Below are positions 1-2,345 of a stretch of 64,000 nt of DNA, one piece after another; position 1 is the stretch's first letter; every line of letters begins with the position of its first letter. The stretch is from Nitrososphaeraceae archaeon (GTDB lineage: Archaea > Thermoproteota > Nitrososphaeria > Nitrososphaerales > Nitrososphaeraceae), in NCBI GenBank assembly GCA_031316115.1, contig JALDRC010000003.1:186001-250000 (forward strand), given 5' to 3'. Both the position numbers and the translations under genes were made by a program. The notes below the pieces were generated by a model. The model saw only the letters and a list, made by a program, of their open reading frames with translations. It made no database searches and had not been told where the DNA came from.

Positions 1-136
1 GCAAGTTGGTCAAGGTGATCAAACAATGACTCAAGAAGAGTGTCAATTTTGCCATGTCCAAGAAGCTCCGCCTATAGTTGACAAAGAGATTCGAGAGAAA
101 GGTTATTATATTCAGAAAATGGAAGGATGTTTATAA
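1..136 (+). CDS. C-terminal end of a small CxxCH protein (partial)
   Basis: An open frame enters from the left edge and stops with TAA at 134-136, giving about 44 residues. It holds the motif EECQFCHVQEAPP and ends with a Cys close to the C terminus (MEGCL). CxxCH can bind haem c, but in a short soluble archaeal protein a CxxC zinc or redox site is at least as likely. The start lies outside the window, so the family cannot be named. The frame is uninterrupted and its composition is protein-like. Confidence 0.55.
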   Translation, partial: QVGQGDQTMTQEECQFCHVQEAPPIVDKEIREKGYYIQKMEGCL

Positions 137-218: not shown

Positions 219-1033
219 ATGTCTTACAATTTTTCTAATCTAAAGATAGCAGAACATAAATTAGAAGAATTTAAATCAAAATCAGTACATAAAGAACATT
301 CAAGATTTTTTTTCCCCTATTTATGTGGAACATATTTTACCTATAGAAAAATAGATGTTTTACGGATTAATACAATAGCCGGATCTATCAGTAATCAAAA
401 AAAAAAATTAGATATTTAGATATTGGATGTGGAAATGGTGATTTTTTAGAGAAAGTCAGGACAATCATTCCAAATGCAAAAGGGATAGATAACAACATTG
501 ATCTTTTATATTTGATTAACAAAAATACACCAAATTATATAGAATTTTACGATGTCAAATTTGGTTTAAATAAATTTTATGATGTTATCTTTGTAGGATG
601 GATGGACCCTGGTCAGGATTTTAGAGATCAAGTTTCAGAAAGTACCAATGTAATAATTACAACATTAGATCAAGGGCTAAGCTTAGCTGCAGAGTACGAG
701 GGAAATGGATTTAACAAAATTGCAGAATGGATTACTCCGTCGTGGGAGGATGTAAATATTGAGATATCCAATAAATATTATTCAAATTTAACAAAATCTC
801 GGATAGAATTTCTTTCAGGTCTAAGAGGAAGCCACAATTATTGGTATGTTTATTGCAATAATGATACATATTGTAGACAAATTAAAAGTGGTTTGAGCAA
901 ACAGGCGTTATTTGAAGAAACAATAATCAAATCGAACAAATATGATTTTGAAGAAGTTCTTGATGATTTGGGATTTGGATTTTTAGAGACTGTAAAAAAT
1001 AAAAAATTATGGGAGATTATTTTTTCCGATTAA
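219..1033 (+). pseudogene. Class I SAM-dependent methyltransferase, frameshifted at an A11 run
   Basis: The ATG at 219 opens a 66-codon frame that stops at 417-419. Just after a run of eleven A (397-407), the frame one base earlier reads KIRYLDIGCGNGDFLEKV, the glycine-rich SAM-binding motif I, and runs open to 1033. That second frame has a stop at 392-394, so motif I has no start codon of its own and is reached only by changing frame at the A run. An extra A (12) or two fewer (9) would restore one protein of about 270 residues. The C-terminal part (DVIFVGWMDPGQDF onward) suggests a small-molecule or protein methyltransferase of unknown substrate. It may be a pseudogene, a sequencing error in the homopolymer, or a gene using slippage. 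Confidence 0.6.
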
Positions 1034-1067: not shown

Positions 1068-2345
1068 TTGATATTGGATATCATATTGGAAATTAAAGTT
1101 TTAGGTGCAGCAAAGGAAGTAGGTCGGTCAGCTTTTTTAGTAAGTAGTGAAAATTCTAATATTTTATTAGACTATGGTATTTTACTTAAAAGAGAACCGG
1201 AGTTCCCTATACATGTTAAACCAAAAGATATTCATGCGATCGTTATTTCTCATGCTCATCTTGATCATTCTGGAAATGTGCCTTCTCTATTTTTATCCTC
1301 ATCTAGAAGTCAGGTTATTGCTACTGCTCCCACGATGGATTTATCATATTTATTAATTAATGATATGCTAAAGATTTCAGGGTTTTACCTACCTTTTGAA
1401 AATATAGAAGTAGAAAATATGGTGAAGAATCATACCGATTTAGATTTTAGAACAAAACATGCTATTAATGATTTAAACATAACATTATTTGAATCTGGTC
1501 ATGTAGTAGGAGGATCATCTATAATTGTAGAATGTAAAGGTAAAAAAATTTTTTATACTGGAGATATTAATACGAGAGGGTCAAAATTGTTAAGACCTGC
1601 AGACTTAGACTTTGAAGAAATAGATATGATGATAATAGAAAGCACATATTCACAAACTAATCAAAAGCAGAGAGAGCAATCAGAAAAAGAACTTTTAGAA
1701 TTTGCTTATGATATTGTTGAAAATGATGGTACGCTATTTATCCCTGCTTTTTCAGTAGAAAGATCACAAGAAATTGCTTGTGTATTTAAAGCTGCTAACT
1801 TTCCCTATAAAGTAGTAATGGACGGAATGGCCCTAAAGGTAAATGAGATAATATCCAAATATCCAGAATTCTTAAGGGACTCGGAACTTTTTAAAAATGC
1901 AATAGAAAATGTTGAATGGATTCGAGATTGGAAAAGGAGAAAACAAGTTATAAAACAACCTTGTGTAATAATTTCTCCTGCTGGCATGCTGGTAGGAGGT
2001 TCGGCAATATTCTATATGCAAAATTTAATGAATTCGGATAAGAATGGCATCGCCTTAGTATCATACCAGGGAGAAAATACACCAGGAAGATTATTGTTAG
2101 AAAAAAAAACTTTCAAAATGAATGGAAAAATAAAAAAATGTTTTGCACAAGTCAAACAATTTGAATTTTCTGGTCATAATAGTAGAGAGGAATTATTCGA
2201 GATATTAGATAGAGTAAAAGGTAATCCCACTGTTCTCGCTGTACATGGAGACAATGATGTATGTGTCAAGTTTTCTGAAGAAATCTCTGAAAAATATGGG
2301 TATGAGTCATTTGCTCCTAATGCAGGTGATACCTATAAATTGTAA
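1068..2345 (+). CDS. Beta-CASP metallo-beta-lactamase ribonuclease, aCPSF2-like
   Basis: This 425-residue protein has the metallo-beta-lactamase motif HAHLDH at about residues 62-67, and motif-3-like (ESGHVVGGS) and motif-4-like (YTGDIN) segments. A beta-CASP region follows, with a C-terminal AVHGD segment. The N-terminal GAAKEVGRSAFLV and the lack of KH domains match archaeal aCPSF2, a 5'-3' exo/endoribonuclease, rather than the KH-bearing aCPSF1; aRNase J is the nearest alternative. It probably acts in RNA processing and decay in the cytoplasm. The start is a TTG at 1068, 34 bases after the methyltransferase frame ends, so the two may share a transcript. Confidence 0.85.
   Translation: MILDIILEIKVLGAAKEVGRSAFLVSSENSNILLDYGILLKREPEFPIHVKPKDIHAIVISHAHLDHSGNVPSLFLSSSRSQVIATAPTMDLSYLLINDMLKISGFYLPFENIEVENMVKNHTDLDFRTKHAINDLNITLFESGHVVGGSSIIVECKGKKIFYTGDINTRGSKLLRPADLDFEEIDMMIIESTYSQTNQKQREQSEKELLEFAYDIVENDGTLFIPAFSVERSQEIACVFKAANFPYKVVMDGMALKVNEIISKYPEFLRDSELFKNAIENVEWIRDWKRRKQVIKQPCVIISPAGMLVGGSAIFYMQNLMNSDKNGIALVSYQGENTPGRLLLEKKTFKMNGKIKKCFAQVKQFEFSGHNSREELFEILDRVKGNPTVLAVHGDNDVCVKFSEEISEKYGYESFAPNAGDTYKL

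Follow-up and report, generated by a model that had tools for sequence, protein, structure and literature searches.

The predicted methyltransferase gene at positions 219-1033 of the window (the whole 64,000-nucleotide stretch of DNA analysed here, C14:186001-250000, from a genome of 3.16 Mb in 20 contigs, 98.8% complete) is split by a run of eleven A into two frames that are the consecutive halves of one protein. We put roughly two chances in three on the split being an assembly error, in which the A run was under-counted and the gene is intact in the cell. The assembly would then have recorded the run one base short, the cell would carry one ordinary class I SAM-dependent methyltransferase gene of ~272 residues, and reads over the run would show another run length. 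The features of the locus are as follows.

2..136, + strand: 3′ end of the conserved upstream neighbour (a small protein), whose position is kept in genus-mates
219..419, + strand: upstream frame; ATG start, 66 aa, TAG at 417-419; N-terminal ~60 residues of the predicted methyltransferase
392..394, + strand: TAA closing the downstream frame directly 5′ of the run
395..1033, + strand: downstream frame (-1), with the GCGNGDF SAM-binding motif and the remaining ~208 residues of the predicted methyltransferase
397..407, + strand: A11 run, the point of frame loss, with A AAA AAA heptamers in the upstream frame
1068..2345, + strand: metallo-beta-lactamase / Beta-Casp / RMMBL protein, the conserved downstream neighbour, intact

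One gene in two frames

Sequence and translations agree that frame 219-419 ends just past the A11 run, and that the second frame carries GCGNGDF after the run, is closed by TAA at 392-394 and has no start before the motif, all as the first-pass annotation had described. Its frame arithmetic was also right, since the second frame lies at -1 to the first and either one added A or two fewer would join them. The two frames overlap by 25 bases around the run, and the downstream one runs unbroken over 395-1030 (212 codons; stop at 1031-1033). An internal start for the second frame was rejected because no ATG, GTG or TTG lies 5′ of the SAM motif in that frame, the first TTG being at 512. When both were aligned to the family profile (276 positions), the upstream frame matched positions 1-70 (1.8e-20) and the downstream frame positions 30-275 (3.3e-102), and the ATG at 219 fell in the alignment where the genus orthologues begin (MSYNF.. 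/ MDYNF..). Because the frames correspond to consecutive halves of a conserved protein that is a single ORF in genus-mates, they are two parts of one class I methyltransferase gene and not a chance pairing.

The gene is present in all five genus-mates, as a full-length single ORF in four and open up to the contig end in the fifth. Synteny is also kept: the upstream neighbour and the Beta-Casp metallo-hydrolase flank the gene there too, and an OGG-like glycosylase is also in place in the two genus-mate loci long enough to include it. Both the A11 run and the break are missing from all five orthologues, and the -1 arrangement is not conserved. In place of the run, the orthologues carry a variable linker, 4-5 residues long, and the window is 4 bases shorter there. 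Judging from this linker, which holds no A run in any of the five, the A11 run is special to the window's lineage and not a conserved device. The run in itself is ordinary. At the window's GC content of 30%, dinucleotide-shuffled windows held a mean of 2.75 A11 matches, with at least one in 81 of 100 shuffles, so that about three per 64 kb are expected by chance; counted over both strands, the whole genome holds 22 separate A≥11 runs and 68 A10 runs.

Strong family matches were found in 62 of 70 Nitrososphaeraceae genomes, usually as two paralogues, whereas among 200 genomes of the class only weak matches around the SAM motif appeared outside Nitrososphaeraceae. The paralogues are direct neighbours in the finished genomes G012, G013, G014, G031, G032 and G048, for example as an adjacent pair of predicted class I methyltransferases at G012:C1:1267920-1269559; in the window's genome they are on different contigs and the pair is split up. 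GCGNG is present in all aligned rows that cover the site, save single substitutions. The family resembles class I SAM-dependent methyltransferases in its GCGNGDF motif and in the Rossmann-like fold predicted for an orthologue (mean pLDDT 79.9), and a fold search with that model returned class I methyltransferases, with RlmA(I) (1p91) on top. It differs from them in its Pfam matches, which stay below threshold (Methyltransf_23/31 at 22.4 and 22.3 bits, cut-off 27), in modest TM-scores of about 0.3-0.5, and in having no match in a sequence search of the PDB. Searches of Pfam, NCBIfam, PDB sequences and folds for a substrate gave nothing finer than "class I methyltransferase". By motif and predicted fold the product is a putative class I SAM-dependent methyltransferase, whose substrate may be RNA or a small molecule.

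Selection on the split gene

To judge from substitution rates, which are rough because dS is near saturation, dN/dS against four relatives was 0.10-0.18 downstream of the run and 0.17-0.33 upstream of it, the latter on 58 codons only. The intact paralogue of the same genome gave 0.12-0.16 against the same genus-mates, where both copies exist. In the window's lineage the ratio of dN between the broken copy and the paralogue was about 1.25 (about 0.31/0.25), and between the same two copies in relatives, both intact, it was 1.3-1.7. No further stop or second frame change was found in the 266 codons of the broken copy. About 8% of random substitutions in this sequence create a stop, and three stops would be expected by 0.046 substitutions per site. 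The break, if real, is thus recent or compensated, given the lack of a second lesion and the low dN/dS.

The first-pass argument against long decay was borne out by these values. The reading as a long-dead pseudogene, in which the two halves only keep a likeness, is very improbable and was rejected: the frame is broken in the assembly, and a paralogous copy in another genus does bear many lesions, but here purifying selection is kept at the level of the intact paralogue, other lesions are absent, and dN relative to the paralogue is no higher than between the intact copies of relatives. The lesioned copy is the first of the methyltransferase pair at G022:C184:15100-17100 (L272), which has many frame changes and stops and no long homopolymer, next to an intact neighbour copy; this paralogue has either decayed or been mis-assembled, and it differs from the window's gene with its single break.

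Long A runs in this and related genomes

We surveyed all runs of A≥10 in the genome together with 30 of the 292 A9 runs. Breaks were flagged where frames of at least 45 codons lay on each side, and runs were classed as in frame within an ORF of at least 100 codons, a filter that can miss breaks in short genes or close to gene ends.

A≥11 runs (22): in frame, 10 (A strand) and 1 (T strand); breaks, 2; neither, 9
A10 runs (68): in frame, 39 (A strand) and 3 (T strand only); flagged, 3 (1 homologue-backed); neither, 23
A9 runs (30 of 292): in frame, 17; breaks, 0; neither, 13

Two of the pairs flagged at A10 were not counted, one reading antisense across the start of the AAA_18 kinase gene described next (L134) and the other consisting of two short frames of 65 and 51 codons (L146). 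The third, at C15:311304-311315 (L135), breaks an AAA_18 kinase gene that lies roughly 1 kb away from the unbroken paralogue of the methyltransferase. Of the 128 positions in the AAA_18 model, the two kinase frames match 1-57 and 76-127. The orthologue scored best against PRK03839 ("putative kinase"), below cut-off; we take AK6/Fap7 to be the name for proteins of this kind. For the downstream half of the kinase nothing further matched in this genome; three of the five genus-mates each gave a single open match, and the remaining two (87% and 69% complete) gave none. It is unlikely that the kinase gene is dead, because this is the only detected copy of a conserved gene that is open in all three genus-mates with a match. 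The other break at A≥11, besides the methyltransferase, lies at C1:222536-222546 (L015), where the downstream frame is again -1. The A11 run there probably interrupts a small SnoaL-like gene, a case graded no higher because a homologue was found in none of the five genus-mates and the SnoaL_2 match of the first half is weak (E 0.079).

All three counted breaks share one sign, with the downstream frame at -1, although three equal signs arise by chance with p=0.25. Breaks were found at 2 of 12 genic A-strand runs of A≥11 against 1 of 57 such runs of A9-A10 in the same genome (Fisher p=0.076). Of the 56 separate A≥11 runs in the five genus-mates, 31 sit in frame on the A strand and one on the T strand, 24 fall in neither class, and none was flagged as a break; compared with this assembly, that is 0 of 31 against 2 of 12 (Fisher p=0.073). 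The excess of breaks over genus-mates and over A9-A10 runs is thus not significant and only suggestive.

In-frame A11-A13 tracts occur in conserved genes across the genus, apparently the same tracts in different species, with similar flanking residues (L208, L221, L218, L231, L227, L220, L211, L256, L210, L216, L243 and L254). Own-genome examples of in-frame long tracts are L029, L035 and L036, and the Beta-Casp / RMMBL neighbour at 1068..2345 carries an in-frame A9 run at 2101-2109. Such tracts are few in three finished, single-contig genomes of another genus, which hold 12 distinct runs, three of them in frame (two on the A strand and one on the T strand) and none at a break. Poly-A tracts of this length are normal in the genus, and under an assembly error only the count would be off here.

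Assembly error, recent loss or recoding

The first-pass annotation had offered slippage, sequencing error and recent pseudogenisation unranked. From the sequence comparisons we favour assembly error, because same-sign breaks occur elsewhere in the assembly, one of them in the sole detected kinase copy, against 0 of 31 in genus-mates. Under-counting of the run would explain the common sign, the position exactly at the run, the intact selection, the broken sole kinase copy and the unbroken relatives. Other genes broken at long homopolymers, as expected under an artefact, were indeed found, namely the AAA_18 kinase (A10) and the probable A11 case. The assembly is presumably a long-read one, with 20 contigs compared to 220-440 in genus-mates; k141-type contig names in three of the five genus-mates suggest what we take to be short-read assembly. 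Against an artefact, the frame is kept at ten genic runs of A≥11, which means that most lengths are correct, and true indels are also commoner at long runs.

As far as excerpts of the two sources go, most homopolymers in a nanopore consensus are resolved only while shorter than 11 bp (PMC9262707), and the indel errors of a tested long-read assembly are mostly false deletions tied to homopolymers (PMC12007338). The window resembles the errors described in those excerpts in that the frame is lost exactly at a long A run with the sign of a missing base, and in that several genes of one assembly are hit while the gene is otherwise intact; it differs in that most long runs here are in frame and that a long-read origin is, for this assembly, an inferred one. 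Should the break be such an error, one intact methyltransferase should be annotated, and other genes of this genome that are split at runs of A≥10 should be distrusted.

An unlikely alternative is that the A11 run is real and reflects a very recent loss of one base by replication slippage, with the methyltransferase off and the paralogue on, a state that is perhaps polymorphic or switching in the population, like phase variation. Long A runs are hot spots of slippage, the intact paralogue at C15:309395-310225 means that the loss may be tolerable, and unrelaxed selection fits a break that arose less than about 0.05 substitutions per site ago. Such a loss, however, leaves the same-sign break in the only detected AK6-like kinase copy unaccounted for, and the copy is not plainly redundant, as most of the family keeps both paralogues (with at least one in 62 of 70 genomes).

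It is also improbable that the run is real and the gene still read, through slippage of the RNA polymerase or through ribosomes shifting to -1 on A AAA AAA. The anatomy would allow it: CAA AAA AAA AAA in the upstream frame gives an in-phase A AAA AAA, a -1 slippery heptamer (X XXY YYZ) that any A run this long contains trivially, and the second ORF lies at -1 with the 25-base overlap. Purifying selection is unchanged, and laboratory work has documented that indels at long A repeats can be bypassed, according to an excerpt of PMC3812077. On the other hand, neither run nor break is conserved, and downstream RNA structure of the kind that stimulates programmed frameshifting was rejected, with pseudoknot-free folding no stronger than in shuffled sequence (z -0.75, 0.11 and -0.07, and -1.12 for one 75-base stretch). 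A true break that is rescued fits the same facts as under-counting except for the relatives, because these hold the same type of tract in frame in many genes. In-frame A11-A13 tracts number 31 in five genomes and 10 here, which suggests that the tracts are mostly read faithfully, and a tract that slipped often would be costly in those genes; harmless breaks would be expected in genus-mates too, and none was flagged. A wider form, in which A10-A11 tracts are really one base short in several genes, including the sole detected AK6-like kinase, and are routinely bridged by slippage or -1 shifting, is distinctly improbable.

The closest known case is fucA1, the alpha-L-fucosidase gene of Saccharolobus solfataricus, which excerpts of a 2021 review (PMC8211752) describe as the only reported archaeal -1 frameshift gene. 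There too a short N-terminal ORF is followed by a second one at -1, with the overlap at a poly-A heptamer (A-AAA-AAT, 40 bases). The same excerpts state that its full-length relatives have A stretches different by one base; the methyltransferase gene differs in that its relatives are without the run altogether and no stem-loop signal is seen. In a literature search on frameshifting, slippage and homopolymers in archaea and Thaumarchaeota, this gene was absent among the matches listed. If rescue were real, the gene would join fucA1, and a member of Nitrososphaeraceae would be shown to use -1 frameshifting in at least two genes.

Transcriptional slippage of bacteria at A≥9 offers a second comparison, as far as excerpts of PMC1088944 describe it. 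The A11 run exceeds the nine nucleotides at which avoidance of such runs sets in in many genomes, and slippage on it would restore the full frame. The differences are that this is an archaeon with another polymerase, and that its many genic A11+ tracts amount to little avoidance; for AT-rich genomes without avoidance, Baranov and colleagues drew, in the excerpted text, a conclusion similar to ours on faithful reading (PMC1088944).
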